DNA of 24,718 nucleotides from a virus. A program made the translations under genes and the position numbers. Positions 2,563 through 21,828 of this stretch are shown piece by piece. Under the pieces are notes generated by a model, which was not told the origin of the DNA, made no database searches, and was given only the letters and a program-made list of their open reading frames with translations. The stretch's first letter is position 1; each line of letters opens with the position of its first letter. Location: IMG/VR virus record IMGVR_UViG_3300017752_002855, positions 1 through 24,718 of that record. One strand, given 5' to 3'.

Positions 2563-3180
2563 ATGGCTAAAAGAAGAGATCCCAACAGTCGACATTACGT
2601 TGACAATAAAGAATTCCTAGTTGCGATTACAGAGTATCGCGAGCGTGTTCAGGCTGCAAAAGCAGCAGGTGAGCAGAAACCTCGTGTGACTGAGTATCTA
2701 GGTGAGTGTATGGTGAAGATCGCCAACCACCTCGCATACAAATCCAATTTCGTAAATTATACTTTCAGAGACGAGATGATTCTCGACGGTATTGAAAATT
2801 GTATCACATATATTGATAATTTCGATCCAGAGAAATCAAAGAATCCGTTTGCATACTTCACACAGATTACTTACTACGCATTCATTCGTCGTATCCAAAA
2901 AGAGAAGAAGCAAATGGATACGAAGAAAAAGTTTATCGGCAGTTTGGATATGCAGGAACTGATGATGGCAGACGCTGACGGTAATGACGGAAACGCAGAA
3001 TATCTGGAGTATATCCGCAAGGCAGTTGACGAAGCAGCACAGCTTGAAGAAAAGCATGCTGATCAGAAGGCAGGGTTGAAGAAGCGCAGACCCAAATACC
3101 TCGATGATAAAGAGGCACTCGCCATGGCGAAAGAGAAACTAGAAGTTATGAAAGACATTGACGGAGAAAAATCTGAATGA
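2563..3180 (+). CDS. 55: Late sigma factor gp55
   Basis: gp55 is the phage sigma factor that binds host RNA polymerase core and recognises the TATAAATA late promoter, working with the sliding clamp gp45. The protein is 205 residues (T4: 185). Family features seen: an early YVDNKEFL (T4: YVNNKELL), the block FRDEMILDGIENC, the core NFDPEKSKNPFAYFTQ followed by AFIRRIQKEKKQ (T4: NPHAYITQ, then AFVQRIKKERKE), and a charged C-terminus. Late-type boxes elsewhere in the window agree with its presence. The start is ATG 2563. GGTGAT just upstream could act as a Shine-Dalgarno sequence on a longer transcript, but its own promoter would start the RNA past it. Its stop overlaps the next start (ATGA at 3177-3180). 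Confidence 0.93.
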   Translation: MAKRRDPNSRHYVDNKEFLVAITEYRERVQAAKAAGEQKPRVTEYLGECMVKIANHLAYKSNFVNYTFRDEMILDGIENCITYIDNFDPEKSKNPFAYFTQITYYAFIRRIQKEKKQMDTKKKFIGSLDMQELMMADADGNDGNAEYLEYIRKAVDEAAQLEEKHADQKAGLKKRRPKYLDDKEALAMAKEKLEVMKDIDGEKSE

Positions 3181-3747: not shown

Positions 3748-5328
3748 TTGTGCGGGATAAACGGTCACACTAAAGTTAAACGTAAAACTTTAATTGGTTT
3801 GATGAATGCTAAAAATAGTTATCGTGGACCAGATCACACAGGAGTCTGGACTGACGAATTTTTGCATCTCGGTCATAATCTTTTGACCATCTCAGGCGAA
3901 ACTGAAACTTCAAAGCAACCAAAGATTACTCGCAAGGGTAACATATTATCGTATAATGGCGAGATATATGATGTTGAGGGTTATGACACTGATTGGTTGG
4001 CAGAAATGCTAGATTTTCACGGTGTCGATTATCTGAGAAAAGTCAACGGTCATTTTGCTCTTGCTTGGTACGAGGTTGAAAAGGGATTGTTGCATTTGGT
4101 CAGAGATCATTATGGCGGCAAACCTCTCTTTTATCACATCGATGGAAAAAATGATTTGTATTTTTCTAGTACACTGGATGTGTTTAATTATATTACTGAC
4201 ATGGAGTTATGTAAAAGAAGACTAGATAAAATCGACAAGGCATCCCGATTTGCTATGGGTGAACTCACTCCATATAAAAACATACACAAACTATATCCAG
4301 GAGAGATTATAACGTGGGATGTCAAGAAAAAGAAATTGCATTCACGAAGTCACTTACACGATTATCAAATAGAACCTAACAACAATATAACTTTCCCTGA
4401 GATTAAAAAGTCAATAGAGAATGGTATTCGTTCTGTGTGTAACACGAAACAAACAATTGGTGTTAGTTTGTCTGGTGGGTTAGATTCAAATACAGTTTTG
4501 TCGCAAATAAAAAAACTGGGTATGAAAGATAGATATGCAGTTTCTACTATGTATGATGTTTCGGGGCAAAAGGGTATCTACAGCCCATATATGAACGACA
4601 TACGCAAAATTTTTGAATGCGCAGAACACCACGATACTGAACACGTGCCAGTAATAATCAATGAGCAAGTTTTTCGAGATAACCGAATAGAAACCTTGAA
4701 TGCAATATATCACCCTGTGTTTGATTTCAAAAGAGCTGTTCCGAGATTCATGGCGATGAAGGGTGCTGCCGAAGCAGGAGTGAAAGTAATTTGCACTGGT
4801 GACGCAGGCGACGAGATCTTCACAGGTTACAGCGGTGATCATCCAGATATGCAAGAAAGGCGATTGAAAAATTTCACCAAAGAAAATGCTCAAAGAATAA
4901 AAGAAGATTTGCCATGGTTTCCTGTCCATTGTTTTGGTGATGACGCATTAAACAATCAACGATTATTTTTTCTCTTGACCAGAGATAGTTATCATATTGT
5001 AAATGATTTATGTGCTGGGTATTTTTCGATGGAGTATCGCGCTCCGTTTACACACCAGCAACTGGTTCGAGATATTTTATCAGTGCCTGCAGAATTAAAG
5101 ACCAAGCAACACAGCAAGGTTAAAACTCCAGGAATCTCAAAATTTTTGTTGAGAGGACTCTTTGAAGAAGAACTTCCAGACGTGGTTGTCAATACAGACG
5201 AAAAGGCAGGGTGGTGTATACCATGGGAAGCAAGGCACGACCCAATAAACAGGAATTCGTTTTTTAAAATGGTAGACGTTTTCAATTTCAAACAACGTAA
5301 CAATCTCGAAGAACTGAGACATATTTAA
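3748..5328 (+). CDS. asnB: Glutamine-hydrolysing asparagine synthetase
   Basis: This 526-residue enzyme would make asparagine from aspartate, glutamine and ATP in the cytoplasm, or amidate a related substrate. The N-terminal class II glutaminase domain begins MCGI, so Cys2 becomes the N-terminal nucleophile after Met removal; YRGPD (R26-D29) and SYNGEIYD follow. The synthetase domain has the pyrophosphate loop SLSGGLDS (S242-S247) and the later GDAGDEIFTGY (D352-E356). The only start that places Cys second is TTG 3748, with AAGGA at 3733-3737 upstream; an ATG at 3738 is out of frame. The gene is AT-rich (27, 30 and 35% GC in three 60-base rows I counted), far below the VWA gene, suggesting recent acquisition. 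A surface-glycan amidotransferase is an alternative role. Confidence 0.9.
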   Translation: MCGINGHTKVKRKTLIGLMNAKNSYRGPDHTGVWTDEFLHLGHNLLTISGETETSKQPKITRKGNILSYNGEIYDVEGYDTDWLAEMLDFHGVDYLRKVNGHFALAWYEVEKGLLHLVRDHYGGKPLFYHIDGKNDLYFSSTLDVFNYITDMELCKRRLDKIDKASRFAMGELTPYKNIHKLYPGEIITWDVKKKKLHSRSHLHDYQIEPNNNITFPEIKKSIENGIRSVCNTKQTIGVSLSGGLDSNTVLSQIKKLGMKDRYAVSTMYDVSGQKGIYSPYMNDIRKIFECAEHHDTEHVPVIINEQVFRDNRIETLNAIYHPVFDFKRAVPRFMAMKGAAEAGVKVICTGDAGDEIFTGYSGDHPDMQERRLKNFTKENAQRIKEDLPWFPVHCFGDDALNNQRLFFLLTRDSYHIVNDLCAGYFSMEYRAPFTHQQLVRDILSVPAELKTKQHSKVKTPGISKFLLRGLFEEELPDVVVNTDEKAGWCIPWEARHDPINRNSFFKMVDVFNFKQRNNLEELRHI

Positions 5329-7287: not shown

Positions 7288-8957
7288 TGATTTACTTTGA
7301 AAAACTACGGTGGAAAAACTTCCTCTCCACTGGTAATGCTTTCTCTGAGGTAGACTTTACACGATCACCTTCTACTCTTATTGTAGGGGATAACGGTGCA
7401 GGTAAATCAACATTTCTTGATGCATTGTGCTTTGGATTGTTCAACAAACCTTTTAGAAACATAAATAAACCGCAACTGGTGAACTCTGTCAATCAAAAGG
7501 GTTTATTGGTTGAGGTTGAGTTTCGTGTTGGTAAATCCCAATACAAAGTTATTCGTGGTGTCAAACCGAATATATTCGAGGTGCACCGCGATGGTGAGAT
7601 GATTGATCAGGATGCTGCTCTGAGAGACACGCAAAAATATCTCGAAGAATCCATTCTGAACCTGAATTACAAATCATTCACCCAGATCGTTATTTTAGGG
7701 AGCGCATCGTTTACACCATTTATGCAACTCCCTGCACATATTAGACGCGAGGTGATCGAGGATATTTTGGATATCCAGATCTTCACGACTATGAATGGGC
7801 TGTTGAAACAACAGCTGACTGGTATACAAGGAGAGATTCGAGATATTGAGTCCAAGGTAGAGGTTGCCAAACAAAAAGCCACTATCCAGAAACGATATAT
7901 TGAAACTCTAGAAAATAACAAGGCTGATAAGATCAGTGAAATCGAAGGAGAGATAAATGAGTTGGACGGCAAGATCGAGGTCATTAAGAAGGATACAGCA
8001 ATCAAGGATGAGCAGGCGAAGAATCTGGGCGACCCGACCGCAAAAAGAAGAAAACTCGAAGCCATCAACGAAAAGTTTATCTCCCAAGTCAGAAAAATAA
8101 ACAAAGAATTAGAATTTTATGAAAAGCACGACGACTGTCCGACCTGTAAACAGGGTATTCCCCACGAGCATAAAGAAGAAATACAAAGTGAGAGAGTGGG
8201 TAAAATCAAAGAACTCGAAGCAGCATCAGGAGAAATGCAAGAAGAATTCGAAAGAGTGGATCGCCTGATAAAAGAATATCAGGATTTGCAGTCTGAGATA
8301 ATAGAGGCAAATAATGAGATTACAACTAATCAAAAATATCTTCAACGCTTACATGCAGAGTTGGGCGATGCTCGAGGGCGTGTGGCTGATATCGAGTCAG
8401 AGCAAAATAAACTCAAAGAACTTGCCAAAGAAGTAACTGCTGCAAACAAACATCGGTCTGAAAAGAACGAGGAAATGCATTATATGCAGGCAGTTGCTGC
8501 ACTGTTGAAGGACACTGGCATCAAGACCAGAATCATCAAACAATATCTCCCTGCCATCAACACTCTGGCAAACAAGTATCTTGCCGCAATGGACTTCTTT
8601 GTGAACTTCAATCTGGATGAGAAGTTTAACGAGACGATTAAATCTCGTGGTCGCGATAAGTTTTCGTATGCCTCGTTCAGTGAGGGTGAGAAACAGCGCA
8701 TTGATTTGGCGTTGCTGTTTACTTGGAGAACTATAGCCAAGATGAAGAACAGCGCAAGCACCAACCTTTTGATTCTCGATGAGGTGTTTGACAGTTCGTT
8801 GGATAATAATGGTACAGATTACGTTATGACTCTGCTAAATACAATTGGTGACGACACAAACGTATTTGTGATCAGCCATAAGGGTGACCAGTTATTTGAC
8901 AAGTTTAGATCGGTAATTAAATTCGAGAAAAGACAAAACTATTCGGTGATGGTATAA
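7287..8957 (+). CDS. 46: gp46 recombination endonuclease subunit (Rad50/SbcC-like)
   Basis: gp46 is the SMC-like ATPase partner of gp47. The 556-residue protein (T4: 560) has Walker A GDNGAGKST (K40), a Q-loop region around FTQIVILGS, two coiled-coil arms (about residues 170-275 and 295-410), a CPTC zinc hook (C284, C287) at the apex, the ABC signature FSEGEKQR and Walker B LLILDEVFD (D498, E499), followed by a His-switch-like VISHK. The order and spacing are those of a complete Rad50-type protein. It is coupled by TAATG overlaps both to gene 47 upstream and to the deformylase downstream (8955-8959). Confidence 0.95.
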   Translation: MIYFEKLRWKNFLSTGNAFSEVDFTRSPSTLIVGDNGAGKSTFLDALCFGLFNKPFRNINKPQLVNSVNQKGLLVEVEFRVGKSQYKVIRGVKPNIFEVHRDGEMIDQDAALRDTQKYLEESILNLNYKSFTQIVILGSASFTPFMQLPAHIRREVIEDILDIQIFTTMNGLLKQQLTGIQGEIRDIESKVEVAKQKATIQKRYIETLENNKADKISEIEGEINELDGKIEVIKKDTAIKDEQAKNLGDPTAKRRKLEAINEKFISQVRKINKELEFYEKHDDCPTCKQGIPHEHKEEIQSERVGKIKELEAASGEMQEEFERVDRLIKEYQDLQSEIIEANNEITTNQKYLQRLHAELGDARGRVADIESEQNKLKELAKEVTAANKHRSEKNEEMHYMQAVAALLKDTGIKTRIIKQYLPAINTLANKYLAAMDFFVNFNLDEKFNETIKSRGRDKFSYASFSEGEKQRIDLALLFTWRTIAKMKNSASTNLLILDEVFDSSLDNNGTDYVMTLLNTIGDDTNVFVISHKGDQLFDKFRSVIKFEKRQNYSVMV

Positions 8958-9463
8958 TGGAACTATTGAACTTTGGTGATGAGATGTTGAAGCGAACTCC
9001 AAAAGAGTTTGACTTCGAGGAACAAGATGCAAAAGAGTTTTGTGATAAACTGTTTGCGAAACAACAAGAACTCGGAGGCATTGGTCTTTCAGCAAACCAA
9101 GAGGGTTTGGACGCGAAGGTGTTCACATTTGGTGATGGTAAAGACATGAAGCGGTATATCATCAATCCAATTGTTATTGGCATGGGAGATGACACCGAGG
9201 CAATGAAAGAAGGTTGCCTTTCACTTCCTGGAGTGTTCTTGATGATTCGTCGCCCAACAAAGGTGACTGTGAAGTATCAGGATGTAGAAGGTGCTGATGT
9301 TGTCGAGGAGTTTACTGGTATGGCTGCAAGGGTTGTCCTTCACGAATATGACCATATGGTTGGACAAAATTTCACACAACGTGTTTCGAAGCTGAAACTC
9401 GACCGTGCGATAAAGGCAATGAAGAAGAAGGTCGTGAGGAAGATTCGAAGCAAGATACAATAG
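8957..9463 (+). CDS. def: Peptide deformylase
   Basis: This metalloenzyme removes the formyl group from the N-terminal Met of new proteins, allowing Met removal. The 168-residue protein has all three motifs: GIGLSANQ (G41-Q48), EGCLS with metal ligand C87, and HEYDH (H129, catalytic E130, H133). It is close to the length of bacterial enzymes, with a basic C-terminal tail (KAMKKKVVRKIRSK). Deformylases are known in marine T4-like phages, where they are thought to favour turnover or production of particular proteins. Here it is translationally coupled to gene 46 (TAATG), an unexpected partner. The enzymatic assignment is firm; the substrate preference is unknown. Confidence 0.93.
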   Translation: MELLNFGDEMLKRTPKEFDFEEQDAKEFCDKLFAKQQELGGIGLSANQEGLDAKVFTFGDGKDMKRYIINPIVIGMGDDTEAMKEGCLSLPGVFLMIRRPTKVTVKYQDVEGADVVEEFTGMAARVVLHEYDHMVGQNFTQRVSKLKLDRAIKAMKKKVVRKIRSKIQ

Positions 9464-14471: not shown

Positions 14472-15234
14472 AGTTTTGGTCGCTATCCTGACCAATGGGA
14501 AGCCAGAGAAGTTGGAGCGGTGTCTAAAATCCGTGAACTCAAACTCCTCTCCTCATGAGCGGATTGTCGTTATTAATACAACTGATATCGACTTCTCTTC
14601 TCTGGCGACCCAAATTTCTTTTGACAATGGATTCCCTGTAACGAAAACAAAGTCGAATGGGACTCCAGGATGCGGTAAGAATTCTGTCCTTAGATACTTC
14701 CTTTCCAGCGATGCTGATTATGTCCTCCAGATTGATGGAGATGATTACATTTCTGAAACTTGTATTGCTCGGTTACATGAGGAGATCGAGAATAATGAGT
14801 TTGATGTAGCATGTCTGAGTAAAGGGTATGCGCTTGCTTCAAGTAAGAGGAAAATTCTGGTGAAGGATATTCACAATCTCCCCAAGGTTGCAAGGCAGGG
14901 TCTGACATGGGAGAAAGAAGATCTCGATTACTGGCATCAATATTTGGAGTTTATTGCCTCCCACACTTTCAATGGCGATCCATTCAACCGATATATGTTA
15001 TTGAATCGCACTGCTGCAAAGTATAAATTCGATGAGACTCTGGATATCGCGGAGGATCTCTTACATTTCTTACAGGTTAAACGCGATTTGGTATTACACG
15101 AAATTTGCGCTTCCGAAGATGACTTCTTGTATATGTATGACTTCTCTGAAGATGGGCAGGTTATGGATTCGATGAAAGGTAAGACGATGATAGACAATTT
15201 TAAAGCAATGATGGTGGAGTGGAACAATGGATAA
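14464..15234 (+). CDS. Family 2-type glycosyltransferase
   Basis: A 256-residue GT-A fold glycosyltransferase. The opening MAKVLVAILTNGKPEKLERCL strand-helix, an NSNSSPHERIVVINTT strand and the DXD-type IDGDDY motif (D91, D93, D94) for metal and nucleotide-sugar binding fit family 2. Donor and acceptor are unknown; targets in phages include DNA bases, virion proteins and cell-surface glycans. ATG 14464 overlaps the previous stop (14469-14471), which is why it is preferred to the longer in-frame start at 14422. The 3' end overlaps the ketoacyl synthase start by 8 bases. It begins the run of accessory genes 14464-17617. Confidence 0.8.
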   Translation: MAKVLVAILTNGKPEKLERCLKSVNSNSSPHERIVVINTTDIDFSSLATQISFDNGFPVTKTKSNGTPGCGKNSVLRYFLSSDADYVLQIDGDDYISETCIARLHEEIENNEFDVACLSKGYALASSKRKILVKDIHNLPKVARQGLTWEKEDLDYWHQYLEFIASHTFNGDPFNRYMLLNRTAAKYKFDETLDIAEDLLHFLQVKRDLVLHEICASEDDFLYMYDFSEDGQVMDSMKGKTMIDNFKAMMVEWNNG

Positions 15235-16348
15235 ACTTGCCATCACTGGTATTGGTATGATAGATAATCTGGGTAAGAATCCAGAGCAATGCTTCTCGAA
15301 TTATATCAGCGACAATTATGTTGATGCTTATGATGGGAAATTTGTTGCAGATACTAGCGATATGTTACGCCCAGAAAATATGCGAGGATCCGATTATGCG
15401 AGTCTGAGTCGAGTAAATCAGATGGGACTCCACGCTGCAGAAATGGCAATGGCAAATATACCAATGCGTGAAAACACATTCACTCTGTTCTCAACTTTGT
15501 CGAACGGTAATGAAGAGTTGGTTGATTTCGTTCACGACTTGGAAGATGGTGGTCGCAGAGTAAAACCGAAACGCATGGTTCAGAGTTTAAAAGACCACTT
15601 GTCTGGATTGATTCCGATACTTCACAACTTCACTGGTGGTTCTACAGCGTTCAACTCTGCTTGTGCCAGCAGTTTATATGCATTACATTATGCATTCAGC
15701 CTTGCCGACGATTATGATTTCATTGTTTGTGGCGGTGCTAATAGTATCAATGACCTTGACATGGAATATTTCGGTAAACTTGGAGCACTGGGAACATCAT
15801 CCAAGCCATTTGACGAAGATAGAGATGGCTTTATTATGGGTGAGGGTGCTGGGTGCGTTGTGCTTGAACGTCCATACAGCGCGATTTCTCGAGGTGCGAC
15901 CATCTATGGTTACATATACAAACCATCGCTGGGGTCTGATGGATCTGCTGGTAATATCGTTGAACCTTCATCGATCGGCATCACAAAAACGATGCAAAGG
16001 AGCGCAGAAAAATATAAAGAGGCATTGGCGTTTGTTTCTGCACACGCTACCTCGACTCCAGCTGGAGATGTTATTGAGTATGATGCGATTAAGAAAGTGG
16101 TTGGTGATGTCCCTGTCACAGCGTTCAAGTCTAAACTCGGACACACACTAGGTGCTTGCTCCATCATTGAAATCATTTACACGTTGATGGCTCTGCGAAA
16201 TAAAACTATCCCCAAATCTCACAACATTGATGAAACTCTCCTAAATAATGTTGTATTAGAAAATTCGAAAACAACCAAGAGATTTGCGTTAAAGAATAGT
16301 CTTGGATTTGGAGGTAAATGTGCTTCAGTCATTATCGAAGCTGTATAA
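15227..16348 (+). CDS. Beta-ketoacyl-ACP synthase (KAS I/II-like)
   Basis: This thiolase-fold enzyme would condense malonyl-ACP with an acyl-ACP, elongating fatty acids or building a related acyl chain. The 373-residue protein (typical 405-415) has the full Cys-His-His set: C146 in NSACASS, H273 in HATSTPAGD and H306 in KSKLGHTLGA, with the conserved K301, and a C-terminal SLGFGGKCAS glycine loop. The opening LAITGIGMI and GEGAGCVVLE are also typical. It is complete, with only shortened loops. GGAG at 15216-15219 gives a good ribosome site. Ketoacyl synthases are rare in phages. The following desaturase gene overlaps it, suggesting one lipid-modifying unit. Confidence 0.93.
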   Translation: MDKLAITGIGMIDNLGKNPEQCFSNYISDNYVDAYDGKFVADTSDMLRPENMRGSDYASLSRVNQMGLHAAEMAMANIPMRENTFTLFSTLSNGNEELVDFVHDLEDGGRRVKPKRMVQSLKDHLSGLIPILHNFTGGSTAFNSACASSLYALHYAFSLADDYDFIVCGGANSINDLDMEYFGKLGALGTSSKPFDEDRDGFIMGEGAGCVVLERPYSAISRGATIYGYIYKPSLGSDGSAGNIVEPSSIGITKTMQRSAEKYKEALAFVSAHATSTPAGDVIEYDAIKKVVGDVPVTAFKSKLGHTLGACSIIEIIYTLMALRNKTIPKSHNIDETLLNNVVLENSKTTKRFALKNSLGFGGKCASVIIEAV

Positions 16349-17033
16349 AAAATATCATCACACAGGAACACACCAAGCGATGAATTTGGTTGGTGTTGCT
16401 ATGTTATTGTTGTATCCGTTGGTGCAGGGATTCACGGCAAACTATTTGATTGGTGCGTTTGTCGGTATGCTCTTGATTACGTTTGTCGCCTCGGCATATT
16501 ATCACCGTGCGTTGTCTCATAGAACTTGGACTCCGACGAAATCAATGCACTATATTTTCTTGACATTGGGTGCTGCATTTTGGGTTCTCCCAGCCATGTA
16601 TTGGGTTGGGTTGCACCGCAAACACCATAGATACTATGACACTGATCAGGATCCGCATGGTCCAATGGCTGGGTGGAAACAGAATTTGCTGATGGTTCTT
16701 TACAATACCCCAGAAGCATCATATCTGAAGACAGATCTGAAACACGAACCGATGCGCTGGCAGAATACTCATTATTTGAAGATTGCTTTGTTCACCACTT
16801 TGGTGATGGCTCTGGTTAATCCAGTCTTGTATTTTGTAGCGGTGGGTTATGTGTATGGCTCATTCATAATGATTAACACGTATGGTCATTGGCGAGGAGT
16901 AAAAGATTCTCATATCCTTGCTATGTTTTCTGGCGGTGAGTTGTATCATAAAACGCATCACGAAGACCAGAGAAAGACTCGGTTGGGTCTGTTCGACCTT
17001 GGGTATTATGGTTTGATTAAATGGATGAAGTGA
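16320..17033 (+). CDS. Membrane fatty-acid (acyl-lipid/acyl-CoA) desaturase
   Basis: A 237-residue integral membrane di-iron desaturase of the delta-9 type, introducing a double bond into an acyl chain with O2 and an electron donor. All three histidine boxes are present: HRALSH (H62-H67), HRKHH (H99-H103) and HKTHH (H210-H214). WVGLHRKHHRYYD followed by DPHGP is the familiar box II context. Hydrophobic segments at about residues 22-58, 76-96 and 150-185 would form the membrane helices. GTG 16320 with GGAGG at 16310-16314 (5 bases spacing) is preferred; a TTG at 16302 has no ribosome site. It overlaps the ketoacyl synthase by 29 bases and the next gene by 13. Confidence 0.92.
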   Translation: MLQSLSKLYKKYHHTGTHQAMNLVGVAMLLLYPLVQGFTANYLIGAFVGMLLITFVASAYYHRALSHRTWTPTKSMHYIFLTLGAAFWVLPAMYWVGLHRKHHRYYDTDQDPHGPMAGWKQNLLMVLYNTPEASYLKTDLKHEPMRWQNTHYLKIALFTTLVMALVNPVLYFVAVGYVYGSFIMINTYGHWRGVKDSHILAMFSGGELYHKTHHEDQRKTRLGLFDLGYYGLIKWMK

Positions 17034-17983: not shown

Positions 17984-18640
17984 ATGAACATTTCTAAACC
18001 AACCCTTGAAGTCTTAAAAAACTTCGCAACAATTAACACGAACATCCTAGTTCGTGAAGGTAATACTCTTGCCACTATTTCTAATGGTAAGAATATATTC
18101 TCTCGCGCTACAGTGACCGAGTCATTTGACAAGGAGTTTGCGATCTATGACTTGAACAGTCTGCTAGGTCTGCTGACATTCACTGACAATCCAGATCTGG
18201 ATCTTGGCGATGAGAGTCTTAAAATCAACAGCAGTGGTGCAGAGTTTGAGTATTTTTATGCAGACCCTTCAATCATTGTTGCTGCTCCCGACAAGACTAT
18301 TGATGTCGACAACTTCTATGAGTTCTCAATGAGCAAAGATGAAGTCACAAACATCAGTCGTGCTGCCTCTGTAATCAGCGCACCTGTAATGAGTGTTGTT
18401 GGTCGTGACGGTAAAGTGACATTGTCTGTCGGTGATCCATCAACTCCTCGCAGTAACACCTTCCGTCAGGTTATTGGTGAAACTGATAAAGAGTTTGATT
18501 GTCGCCTCGCTGTTGAGAACTTCAAAGTGATTGCCGATTCGTACAAGATCGTCTTGTCACAGAAGAAGTTTATGTTCCTAGAGAACGAATCAGGCACTTT
18601 AAAATACTGGTTGGCTCTCGAACCAAACTCAGTAATCTAA
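17984..18640 (+). CDS. 45: gp45 sliding clamp
   Basis: gp45 is the trimeric processivity ring for DNA polymerase gp43 and also the mobile activator of late transcription through gp55 and gp33. The 218-residue protein (T4: 228) matches the family from the start: ISKPTLEVLKNFATINTNIL (T4: LSKDTTALLKNFATINSGIM), then EFAIYDLNSLLGLL (T4: DVAIYDLNGFLGIL), and ends in the short strand pair WLALEP (T4: VVALEA). It is the first gene of the clamp and clamp-loader operon, although a peroxiredoxin separates it from gene 44. Confidence 0.96.
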   Translation: MNISKPTLEVLKNFATINTNILVREGNTLATISNGKNIFSRATVTESFDKEFAIYDLNSLLGLLTFTDNPDLDLGDESLKINSSGAEFEYFYADPSIIVAAPDKTIDVDNFYEFSMSKDEVTNISRAASVISAPVMSVVGRDGKVTLSVGDPSTPRSNTFRQVIGETDKEFDCRLAVENFKVIADSYKIVLSQKKFMFLENESGTLKYWLALEPNSVI

Positions 18641-18649
18641 GGAGAAACC

Positions 18650-19255
18650 ATGCCTTTATTTCCGCACCGCATACCTAATGTGGTTCATCATGTCCGTGTG
18701 CGTGATGAATCGATTGGTGGTGATAATCCATTCAAGTGGGAAATGAAATTAACCCACGAGATTGTAGGGAGAGAAAAATGTATTATTTTTGCACTTCCTG
18801 GAGCATTCACACCAACCTGCTCTACGTTCCAGCTTCCTGACTTTGAGGAATTGTATCCTCGATTTCAGAAGGCAGGTATCGAAAACATCTTCTGTGTATC
18901 AGTAAACGATACCTTTGTGATGAATAAGTGGGCAGAAGATCAAGGTCTTGAACACGTTAAAGTAATCCCAGATGGATCTGGTAAGTTTACTTCTTCCATC
19001 GGAATGGATGTTTACAAAGACAACCTTGGCTTCGGTATTCGATCTTGGCGTTATGCTTTGATTGTTAAGAACTTTGAGATCGAACAGCAGTTCGTTGAAC
19101 GAGGTTTTAAACATAATGCTGATGACGACCCATACGGTGTATCTTCTCCGCAAAATATCCTTGCCTTTTTGGAAGGAAGAGAGTATGATGCAGGTGGTGA
19201 AGCGTTGCAATTGAACCTATTAGATGGCGTAGGTTCTGAAGATAAAATTGGTTAG
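18650..19255 (+). CDS. Peroxiredoxin (Prx5/PMP20-like)
   Basis: A 201-residue thiol peroxidase that would reduce H2O2 and organic peroxides. The active-site signature P50-x-x-x-T54-x-x-C57 (PGAFTPTC) is intact with peroxidatic C57, and CVSVNDTFVMNKWAED and the Arg in IRSWRYALIV follow the Prx5 pattern. A further Cys (C83 region, FCVSVND) could be the resolving residue; otherwise it is a 1-Cys enzyme needing an external thiol. The C-terminal about 30 residues extend beyond the core. AAGGAG precedes ATG 18650. Peroxiredoxins are unusual in phages, and this one lies inside the replication operon between genes 45 and 44, so it would be made early with the clamp. Confidence 0.92.
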   Translation: MPLFPHRIPNVVHHVRVRDESIGGDNPFKWEMKLTHEIVGREKCIIFALPGAFTPTCSTFQLPDFEELYPRFQKAGIENIFCVSVNDTFVMNKWAEDQGLEHVKVIPDGSGKFTSSIGMDVYKDNLGFGIRSWRYALIVKNFEIEQQFVERGFKHNADDDPYGVSSPQNILAFLEGREYDAGGEALQLNLLDGVGSEDKIG

Positions 19256-19264
19256 GAGTATTAT

Positions 19265-20209
19265 ATGATGAAGCAAGATGAATTTCTTTGGGTTGAAAAA
19301 TACCGCCCACAAACACTGGAGGAATGTATTCTTCCCTCCTCTCTCTTGGATACATTCCAACAGTTCGTGGACGCTGGAGAAATATCAAACTTGCTGTTAT
19401 GTGGTACTGCTGGCACGGGTAAGACGACGGTCGCTCGTGCGTTGTGTAATGAATTAGGATGTGACTACATTATTATCAATGGCTCTGAGGAGTCTGGGAT
19501 CGATGTTCTTCGGACAAAGATCAAAGACTTCGCCAGCACTGTGTCCTTTGAGGGCAAGCCAAAAGTGGTTATACTTGACGAAGCAGATTATTTGAATCCT
19601 AATTCAACACAACCTGCCTTGCGTGCATTCATTGAGGAGTTTTCATCAAACTGTCGGTTCATATTTACCTGTAACTTCCGAAACAGGATTATCGATCCGT
19701 TACACAGTCGAACAACAGTCGTGGACTTTAAACTCGATAAGACCAACCGCCAACAGATGGCATCTCGCTTTATGAAGCGAATGGCTCGTATCCTCGACCA
19801 GGAAAATGTTGAGTATTCTGAAAAAGTCCTTGCTGAACTTTTGATGAAACATTTTCCCGATTATCGACGTGTCCTCAATGAATTGCAACGCTACAGTGTG
19901 TCTGGTAAAATCGACGAGGGAATCCTTTCTAACCTCGCTGAAGTAAATACCAAGGCACTTATTGATAGTCTGCGTGACAAGGATTGGAAGAAGATGCGCC
20001 AATGGGTCGCCAACAATGTTGACGCAGACCCGCAAGGTGTTTATCGTAAAATCTACGATACGCTCTTGGACAAAGTCGCACAAGTTCCGCAACTCGTCCT
20101 TCTCATTGCAGACTATCAATACAAGGCAGCATTTGTGGCTGATCAGGAAATCAATCTAACCGCTTGTCTCACAGAGATTATGGCGAATGTTGAGTTCCGT
20201 AATGCTTGA
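19265..20209 (+). CDS. 44: gp44 clamp-loader ATPase subunit
   Basis: gp44 forms the AAA+ tetramer of the gp44/gp62 clamp loader, which opens gp45 and places it at primer ends. The 314-residue protein (T4: 319) has WVEKYRPQTLEECILP near the start, Walker A GTAGTGKTT (K53), Walker B VILDEAD (D105-D108), and SRT at the position of the Arg-finger SRC motif (LHSRTTVV), where Thr replaces the usual Cys. Tandem ATGs at 19265 and 19268 both suit AGGAG at 19254-19258; the first is listed. The 3' end overlaps gene 62. Confidence 0.95.
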   Translation: MMKQDEFLWVEKYRPQTLEECILPSSLLDTFQQFVDAGEISNLLLCGTAGTGKTTVARALCNELGCDYIIINGSEESGIDVLRTKIKDFASTVSFEGKPKVVILDEADYLNPNSTQPALRAFIEEFSSNCRFIFTCNFRNRIIDPLHSRTTVVDFKLDKTNRQQMASRFMKRMARILDQENVEYSEKVLAELLMKHFPDYRRVLNELQRYSVSGKIDEGILSNLAEVNTKALIDSLRDKDWKKMRQWVANNVDADPQGVYRKIYDTLLDKVAQVPQLVLLIADYQYKAAFVADQEINLTACLTEIMANVEFRNA

Positions 20210-20645
20210 GGGTATGGGTGATCCAGTTGTAAAGCTGGACGAAGAACAGTTTAAAGTAAAGAAAAAATCAATCAGTCCGTTTGATTTCGTGAACGCGATT
20301 CACCACACAAAGCAGGATATGATTGTTGACGACTGGTCTGAGAAACAATACAATGCATTCATCATCAACAAGGCATTGAGTTATGGTGCTGACACGGTGA
20401 TTGCCTGTAATGAAATGAACAGTCGCCCACACATAGACAAGAAAGCACAATTCGATTTTCTTCGCGGTATCGTTCGACCGAAGAAACGATTTAACAAATG
20501 GTTGAAACCAATCAAGGAAGAAGATCTAGCTGTTGTCAAAGAGTATTATGGATACAATGACACTCATGCTCAGAGTGCGTTGAGAATCTTGACTGACGAT
20601 CAGTTAGAAGTTATCAAGAAGAAATTAGAAAGGGGTGGTAGATAA
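20202..20645 (+). CDS. 62: gp62 clamp-loader small subunit
   Basis: gp62 is the non-ATPase subunit of the clamp loader. The product is 147 residues, shorter than T4 gp62 (187). The block FDFLRGIVRPKKRFNKWLK matches T4 HFNYL-AVPRGKRYGKWAK, and the NAFIINKALSYGADTV region corresponds to the T4 FMVENALSQFP helix. Operon position after gene 44 is decisive. The start is uncertain: ATG 20202 overlaps the gene 44 stop by 8 bases and suits translational coupling, but ATG 20187 and 20214 are also in frame. Its last codons form part of an intrinsic terminator, and its 3' end overlaps the minus-strand gene by 21 bases. Confidence 0.85.
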   Translation: MLEGMGDPVVKLDEEQFKVKKKSISPFDFVNAIHHTKQDMIVDDWSEKQYNAFIINKALSYGADTVIACNEMNSRPHIDKKAQFDFLRGIVRPKKRFNKWLKPIKEEDLAVVKEYYGYNDTHAQSALRILTDDQLEVIKKKLERGGR

Positions 20646-21359
20646 CCATCCTTTTTTCTGAAACATTTTTACGACTTCTGGATAAGTTTCTTTATATAGA
20701 ATCTGAATAGCAAAACTTCTCCCCACATAAATCCCTGCCTTTTGTTCTGATTTTGGAACAACTCCCTTTCCACCACCAACACTATGCCACTTACTGGTAT
20801 TTAACAATGATGGGGATCTAAGATTCGCATAGTTGGTGCTACAAGCTAATGTGTCTCTATCGTTTTCTCTGTAAAAATATGTCGGACGATAAAATGCATA
20901 ATCTGGTGATATTGGTATGTTGCAATTTACTCTGTATCCCATCTTTGGATCTTGGTGGACTGGTCCAGCCATATAGTCATTCATAGAGGCACAGAATCTC
21001 CAACCATGACCATTATACCTCTTTGTTATCACTTCCATCATTTCATCAGCTTCAGCTATTTCTATTGCTGGTATTGCGAATAGGGGATTTGGTTCGTTGA
21101 GATTAAACACAAGTGTATTTAATTTTGTTTCGTTCCAAGGGGTTCTTCTATCTTTTTTGGTGATTCTATCGTCTCCAAGTGAAACAAGATTTTGATCGCC
21201 ATGGTATCCTTCGCGTCTAATATCTCTAGAATTGGGATCTGTCTTCACGGTTTCCGTTACAGATTTAATTACCGCGCCACCATATTCCCTGAGTTTTTTT
21301 CTTTCTTCTGGAGATAGGAGGTCTTTACACGGAAAGTAATATTGATGTTTCGCTGACAT
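20625..21359 (-). CDS. Putative 2OG-Fe(II) oxygenase-like protein
   Basis: The only minus-strand gene of the window, 244 residues. I do not recognise a named protein, but the spacing of H135-x-D137 (GPVHQD), H192 (LLNTSKWHSV) and R214 (GRSFAIQI) is that of the HxD...H...R iron and 2-oxoglutarate site of the dioxygenase superfamily, with a NCNIPIS strand after HxD and the LLNT strand before the distal His as expected. Such enzymes hydroxylate proteins, lipids, small molecules or bases; the substrate here is unknown. ATG 21359 is preferred to the in-frame codons further upstream because the late promoter would start RNA exactly there. It sits between genes 62 and regA, which adjoin in T4, and overlaps gene 62 tail to tail by 21 bases. 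Confidence 0.65.
   Translation of the reverse strand: MSAKHQYYFPCKDLLSPEERKKLREYGGAVIKSVTETVKTDPNSRDIRREGYHGDQNLVSLGDDRITKKDRRTPWNETKLNTLVFNLNEPNPLFAIPAIEIAEADEMMEVITKRYNGHGWRFCASMNDYMAGPVHQDPKMGYRVNCNIPISPDYAFYRPTYFYRENDRDTLACSTNYANLRSPSLLNTSKWHSVGGGKGVVPKSEQKAGIYVGRSFAIQILYKETYPEVVKMFQKKGWLSTTPF
20633..20657 (+). terminator. Intrinsic terminator of the 45-44-62 operon
   Basis: Stem GGGTGGT (20633-20639) and ACCATCC (20645-20651), 7 bp with one G-U pair, a 5-base loop, then T6 (20652-20657). It overlaps the gene 62 stop codon (20643-20645). Read on the minus strand, the stem has an A-C mismatch and lacks a clean U-run, so it works mainly for + strand transcripts. Confidence 0.8.
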
Positions 21360-21364
21360 AATGA

Positions 21365-21372
21365 TATTTATA
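21365..21372 (-). promoter_or_regulatory. Late promoter (perfect TATAAATA, minus strand) of the oxygenase-like gene
   Basis: On the minus strand this reads TATAAATA. With T4 spacing (box at -13 to -6) position +1 is 21359, the A of the ATG, so the message would be leaderless. It forms the left half of a 12-bp perfect palindrome with the regA promoter. Confidence 0.65.
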
Positions 21373-21376
21373 AATA
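21369..21376 (+). promoter_or_regulatory. Late promoter (perfect TATAAATA) of regA
   Basis: A perfect late box that shares its first four bases with the oppositely oriented box at 21365-21372; together 21365-21376 is a perfect palindrome. The predicted start near 21382 leaves a leader of about 33 bases with AAGGA at 21404-21408 before the regA ATG. Confidence 0.75.
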
Positions 21377-21414
21377 AATCCAGACACTCTAAAGAAGAAG
21401 AATAAGGATTTATG

Positions 21415-21828
21415 ATGAGTGAAGATTTCTTCCAGATTGAATATCCTGGATACGCACCGCTAGAAATCACTTTAAAAGATGCAGATGACTTTCTAAAAAT
21501 TAGAGAAACATTATCCCGCATTGGCGTTGCTTCCAGAAAAGAAAAAGTTTTATACCAGTCTTGTCACATACTGCACAAGAAGGGTAGGTATTTCATCACA
21601 CACTTCAAAGAACTGTTTGCGCTTGATGGTAAGGCAGCAGACTTTGGTGAAGGTGACTTGGAAAGGCGAAACACGATCGCTAAGTTACTTTCAGACTGGG
21701 GTTTGATGACTATAGTATCTGAAGAGCAGCATGCTGAACAAGCACCGCTGTCTCAGATTAAGGTTCTCTCGTTCAAAGAAAAGAACGATTGGGAACTGAT
21801 AACCAAATATAATATTGGCAAAAAATAA
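21415..21828 (+). CDS. regA: RegA translational repressor
   Basis: RegA is an RNA-binding protein that blocks ribosome binding on many early phage messages, in T4 including those of 45, 44 and regA itself. The 137-residue protein (T4: 122) matches closely: LEITLKDADDFLKIRETLSRIG (T4: IEITLKKPEDFLKVKETLTRMG) in two parts, VLYQSCHILHKKGRYFI, HFKELFALDG, LLSDWGLMTIV and the C-terminal KYNIGKK. Tandem ATGs at 21412 and 21415 exist; the second is better spaced (6 bases) from AAGGA. In contrast to T4, it is cut off from gene 62 by a terminator and an opposing gene, and its only clear promoter is late. Confidence 0.95.
   Translation: MSEDFFQIEYPGYAPLEITLKDADDFLKIRETLSRIGVASRKEKVLYQSCHILHKKGRYFITHFKELFALDGKAADFGEGDLERRNTIAKLLSDWGLMTIVSEEQHAEQAPLSQIKVLSFKEKNDWELITKYNIGKK

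Follow-up and report, generated by a model that had tools for sequence, protein, structure and literature searches.

In this study, we asked what a perfectly symmetrical 12-bp element does between the gene for the translational repressor RegA and an oppositely oriented gene in a T4-related marine phage, that is, whether it serves both genes as a promoter and whether it also forces a choice between them. The stretch of DNA analysed, referred to here as the window, comprises 24,718 nucleotides, and in a nucleotide search of a phage collection its nearest records were T4-like cyanophages, which match it in parts at about 67% identity. Our reading, to which we give a probability of about 0.75, is that the palindrome acts as a bidirectional T4-type late promoter that allows co-expression of two late genes, with some competition between them and with no dedicated switch. 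This reading draws on four sequence-based observations, namely the element itself, its conservation together with the gene order, a fixed 5-nt spacing on one side and the match with an element between T4 genes 26 and 51. The features on which the argument turns are as follows.

2563..3180, plus strand: gp55-type late sigma factor (PHROG 234, 2.4e-59)
17984..18640, plus strand: gp45-type sliding clamp (PHROG 223, 3.5e-62)
19265..20209, plus strand: gp44-type clamp loader (PHROG 168, 1.2e-124)
20187..20645, plus strand: gp62-type clamp loader, overlapping the 3' end of the dioxygenase gene (PHROG 225, 1e-40)
20625..21359, minus strand: 2OG-Fe(II)-dioxygenase-fold protein, 244 aa (invariant HxD...H; AF2 model and Foldseek)
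21365..21376, both strands: TATTTATAAATA palindrome, formed by two late-promoter boxes that overlap; unchanged in all 11 contigs that have the gene pair
21365..21372, minus strand: TATAAATA, the late box of the dioxygenase gene, from which transcription is predicted to start on the A of the ATG (21359)
21369..21376, plus strand: TATAAATA, the late box of regA, from which transcription is predicted to start near 21382 by the T4 rule of -13 to -6 (PMC1524935)
21404..21408, plus strand: Shine-Dalgarno-like AAGGA of regA (from the sequence)
21412..21828, plus strand: regA, translational repressor (Pfam PF01818 Translat_reg, 1.8e-46; PHROG 242)

Inspection of positions 21365-21376 confirmed what a preliminary description of this DNA had noted, a perfect 12-bp palindrome in which two copies of TATAAATA, one per strand, overlap and have the central TATA (21369-21372) in common. 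TATTTATAAATA occurs once in 24.7 kb, where shuffled sequences average 0.01 copies, and TATAAATA is present five times in the window versus 0.8 expected from shuffles, its sole minus-strand copy being the one inside the palindrome. A chance origin of the palindrome is ruled out by these shuffles together with the junction counts and the conservation in other contigs given below. A sigma-70-like promoter at the palindrome was also considered and the scan found none. The assignment to the T4-type, gp55-dependent late promoters follows from the exact TATAAATA on both strands and from the phage-encoded gp55-type sigma factor; the gp45 gene is likewise present in this record, which is a 24.7-kb fragment. 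Since the window encodes gp55-, gp45-, gp44- and gp62-type proteins, its late machinery is likely to be of the T4 type. The element can also be classed as a putative bidirectional promoter, one symmetrical element being common to two genes, one on each side. The earlier view of a palindromic, face-to-face late promoter with regA on one side and the only minus-strand gene on the other is therefore supported, the latter being the sole convincing minus-strand gene of the window.

On the plus side, translation of regA probably begins at the second ATG, at 21415, because relatives read ATAATGAGTGAAGA here. A search for terminator-like sites on the plus strand between gp62 and regA found none, and regA may for this reason also be reached by read-through from gp44-gp62. 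The gp62 and dioxygenase genes overlap tail to tail by 21 bp (20625-20645), and such read-through towards regA would therefore be antisense to the whole dioxygenase gene. Several metabolic-type genes are also found in the window, at 15227-16348, 16302-17033, 3748-5328, 8957-9463 and 18650-19255; the products include a beta-ketoacyl synthase, a desaturase-like protein (recognized by eye only), an asparagine synthase-type amidotransferase, a peptide deformylase and a redoxin, the gene for which adjoins the clamp genes.

For the product of the minus-strand gene, the preliminary description had proposed an oxygenase-like enzyme, and this is right as to the fold. The best Foldseek matches in the PDB of an AlphaFold2 model, which is of moderate confidence (mean pLDDT 68, low over residues 43-101), are 2OG-Fe(II) oxygenases, e.g. 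PHD2, AsqJ and ALKBH2, and the model combines a double-stranded beta-helix fold with the HxD...H iron ligands, H135, D137 and H192, which are invariant in an alignment of nine relatives. At the sequence level, the protein has no match in Pfam, PHROG or the PDB that would place it in a known family; a profile of nine of these dioxygenases gave no match among PDB sequences, and tblastn with three of them gave none among 50,697 phage records. We call the product dioxygenase-fold only and regard the enzyme activity as putative. Proteins of the 2OG-Fe(II) oxygenase superfamily are common in cyanophages (PMC3037559).

In order to follow the element in other phages, marine contigs were collected by a regA search, by a DNA-pattern scan and by protein searches with two sub-alignments of the dioxygenases. 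The full palindrome is kept in 11 of 11 contigs, the window included, that have the dioxygenase gene beside regA, in a sample that is partly biased, the pattern scan selecting for the promoter and not being used alone as evidence of conservation. One further contig (L001), which hardly differs from the window (99.97% identity over 5,966 bp), was left out of the separate count, and a generic palindrome-plus-ATG scan, which mixes many phage types, served as a lead only. The regA search returned 80 loci, 44 of which carry the plus TATAAATA without the minus half, 10 carry NATAAATA, 24 have neither and two (L002 and L003) have the palindrome; in both of these, a dioxygenase-type gene occupies the corresponding position on the minus strand. 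At all 44 plus-box loci, which have no minus gene, the four preceding bases are never TATT. The palindrome is also kept in a contig (L226) found by its own protein rather than by the pattern. The preliminary description had named relatives with this gene order and only half of the palindrome as grounds for refutation; none was found among the 11 contigs, and half-palindromes were seen only where the minus gene is absent. TTTATTTATAAATAT is unchanged in all 11 contigs, the remainder of the regA leader varies by substitutions and indels, and only 22% of regA third codon positions are invariant among ten of the palindrome contigs. The minus open reading frame is also open to an upstream start at 21521 in the window; this candidate was rejected because 7 of the 11 contigs have a stop in frame no more than 25 codons before the conserved ATG.

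The regA tree places the loci with the palindrome in a single clade (96/92) amid plus-box loci, and the palindrome thus probably arose in one event. The simplest history would be that a directional late promoter of regA came first, that the divergent dioxygenase gene arrived once, and that the promoter became symmetrical and stayed so. Three contigs (L222, L223 and L226) are 98-99% identical on the regA side, but in 40-column windows the identity of their dioxygenase genes drops to only about 25-60% in the gene body and recovers towards both ends. This pattern suggests that the dioxygenase gene is a cassette for which exchange takes place at one fixed site. Because of this apparent exchange, promoter conservation among the closest contigs in part reflects common flanking DNA, and we take the conservation argument to rest on the deeper branches.

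The two sides of the palindrome differ in their distance from the genes. In T4, the late box spans -13 to -6 (PMC1524935), and by this numbering the plus start would be at 21382, giving a regA leader of about 33 nt that contains AAGGA, and the minus start would be at 21359, giving a leaderless message. The minus start predicted in the preliminary description, also 21359, is exactly the minus gene's ATG, a geometry that was overlooked there, as was the T4 precedent. There is no Shine-Dalgarno site before this ATG, and the box is exactly 5 nt from it in 11 of 11 contigs, with varying spacer bases (TCATT, TCAGT, TCAAT or TTAGT). The spacing was examined further in a test that is independent of annotation, in which ATGs opening at least 80 codons were counted at distances of 0-9 after TATAAATA. 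In 12 contigs including the window, 21 such ATGs lie at 5 nt versus four at all other distances. For the Pelagibacter phage HTVC008M the same test gave five at 5 nt with TATAAATA and nine with NATAAATA, spacings of 4 and 6 nt being rare, and for the 5-nt class it gave 0 in T4, KVP40 and the cyanophage Syn9 and 0 to 1 in the cyanophage S-PM2. When NATAAATA and a limit of 60 codons were used, 35 candidates in 20 protein families were found, the dioxygenase accounting for six candidates. Many genes that start exactly 5 nt after NATAAATA were seen in HTVC008M (NC_020484) and in five relatives (G006, G007, G010, G011 and G012). In HTVC008M, as on the minus side here, NATAAATA-N5-ATG is found at depositor-annotated starts, those of genes for a 2OG-Fe(II) oxygenase, a CsgF-like protein, a DNA end protector, a tail tube cap and baseplate proteins; however, this phage lacks TATTTATAAATA and its promoters are not the 12-bp palindrome. 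With a geometry that fits in 11 of 11 contigs, an enriched spacing and a predicted start, the natural reading is that genes spaced in this way would have leaderless late messages.

The palindromic architecture itself is of an already known kind. The sole TATTTATAAATA of T4 (NC_000866), at 116450-116461, separates late genes 26 and 51, which are divergent and carry baseplate hub annotations. Of the 11 phages in a comparison, 10, among them phages of Acinetobacter and Klebsiella, have this palindrome, with differing intergenic bases nearby; Krischvirus MIZ4 is the one without it. In OL960580 both overlapping boxes are annotated as T4-late promoters, and the source cited for that annotation is Miller et al. 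2003. The identical 12-mer thus stands between two divergent genes in both cases; however, in T4 both messages would have leaders and Shine-Dalgarno-like sites (17 and 21 nt from box to ATG), whereas the minus side in the window is predicted to be leaderless. What differs here is that one message appears to begin exactly on its start codon. Junctions between called genes were compared in 12 contigs, where gene calls in those lacking annotation are mechanical, and in five isolate genomes; each of the 10 palindromes at such junctions separates divergent genes, and 0 of 149 co-directional box junctions has a palindrome (Fisher p 1e-8, or 5e-4 with related palindromes collapsed to four families). 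In relatives, TATAAATA shows a strong coding-strand bias, e.g. 40:7, 18:0 and 0:15. Further copies of TATTTATAAATA were noted in marine relatives at G006:71590-71601, G009:9521-9532, G006:162681-162692 and G007:83517-83528, and those of G006 and G009 at called junctions sit between divergent genes. In four contigs (L083, L154, L158 and L195) a T4 gene 4-like gene, recognized by eye (MAYQGKFRPK...), starts 5 nt from TATTTATAAATA, and on the palindrome's other side a divergent gene follows at a distance of about 30 nt. None of the literature searched dealt with T4 late promoters that are symmetrical or divergent.

Two alternative readings would do away with a pair of working promoters. The plus box might be the sole working promoter, with the minus gene transcribed from elsewhere and the minus half a passive passenger, for example as DNA beside exchanged cassettes. 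The contrast described above between nearly identical regA sides and widely different dioxygenase bodies is in agreement with this idea and indicates that hitch-hiking contributes among the closest contigs. However, across the deeper branches it is the leader that varies, and TTTATTTATAAATAT and the 5-nt spacing stay constant; moreover, the minus half is never present at loci without the gene, and the scan found no sigma-70-like promoter near the minus start, so that we consider a passive minus half improbable. A perfect inverted repeat between divergent genes is also in the usual place for an operator, and the palindrome might bind a dimeric regulator instead of polymerase. This we regard as very improbable, as each half is exactly a late box, the box alone recurs before plus-strand genes, the palindrome is absent from the co-directional junctions and in the T4 relative the annotation gives two late promoters for the same element.

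According to the bidirectional reading, host RNA polymerase with gp55 and, on the T4 model, gp33 and the gp45 clamp would bind TATTTATAAATA late in infection, in either orientation and one at a time per DNA copy, the plus-facing polymerase producing the regA message with its leader and Shine-Dalgarno-like site and the minus-facing polymerase the leaderless dioxygenase-fold message. Mutually exclusive binding on one DNA copy is likely because the predicted starts are only 23 bp apart. The bidirectional promoters of Escherichia coli (Warman et al., PMC12825309) are similar in that a symmetrical -10-type element drives divergent transcription, and a start separation of 23 bp is a common class among them; they differ in using sigma-70 and TATAAT, whereas here a gp55 late box is present, the activity of which we infer. 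Opposing polymerases sterically exclude each other at the E. coli promoters, with competition only when one direction is strongly activated and none at the basal level (PMC12825309). The preliminary description was therefore fair in suggesting that two gp55-polymerase complexes could not bind at once, but the built-in either/or switch that it derived from this is unsupported; exclusion on one copy is not bistability, and a cell late in infection holds many genome copies. A true switch, in which competition selects RegA or the dioxygenase per cell or infection phase and the trade-off itself is under selection, would account for the strict retention of the palindrome and for a separation at which two polymerases should not fit. 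However, the box and the factor are identical in both directions, which leaves no known input to flip it; basal E. coli promoters of this kind showed no competition; in T4 the same element serves a gene pair, 26 and 51, whose products are needed together; and read-through into regA would meet no blocking terminator-like site. We thus think it improbable that the element is a dedicated switch, and prefer co-expression with some competition.

A further idea concerns direction. The polarity of T4 late activation is set by the orientation of the clamp (PMC2988020), and a symmetrical promoter might therefore be oriented by the clamp and so, indirectly, by replication. That the promoter has no built-in direction and that the orientation of the gp45 sliding clamp sets it seems to us unlikely, though less so than a switch or a passive minus half. 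If true, a palindromic late promoter would report the direction of the replication fork, and the output of regA versus the dioxygenase would follow replication polarity. As T4 has a copy of the element, both competition and clamp-dependent direction are testable in a reconstituted system.

Taken as a bidirectional late promoter, the palindrome between divergent genes would recur as a conserved device among T4-like phages, from T4 genes 26 and 51 to uncultured marine phages. For Pelagibacter-type phages, the 5-nt spacing suggests that some late messages form a leaderless class, one that is absent from T4 and the cyanophages, and such a class would matter for the annotation of gene starts and for translation in these phages.
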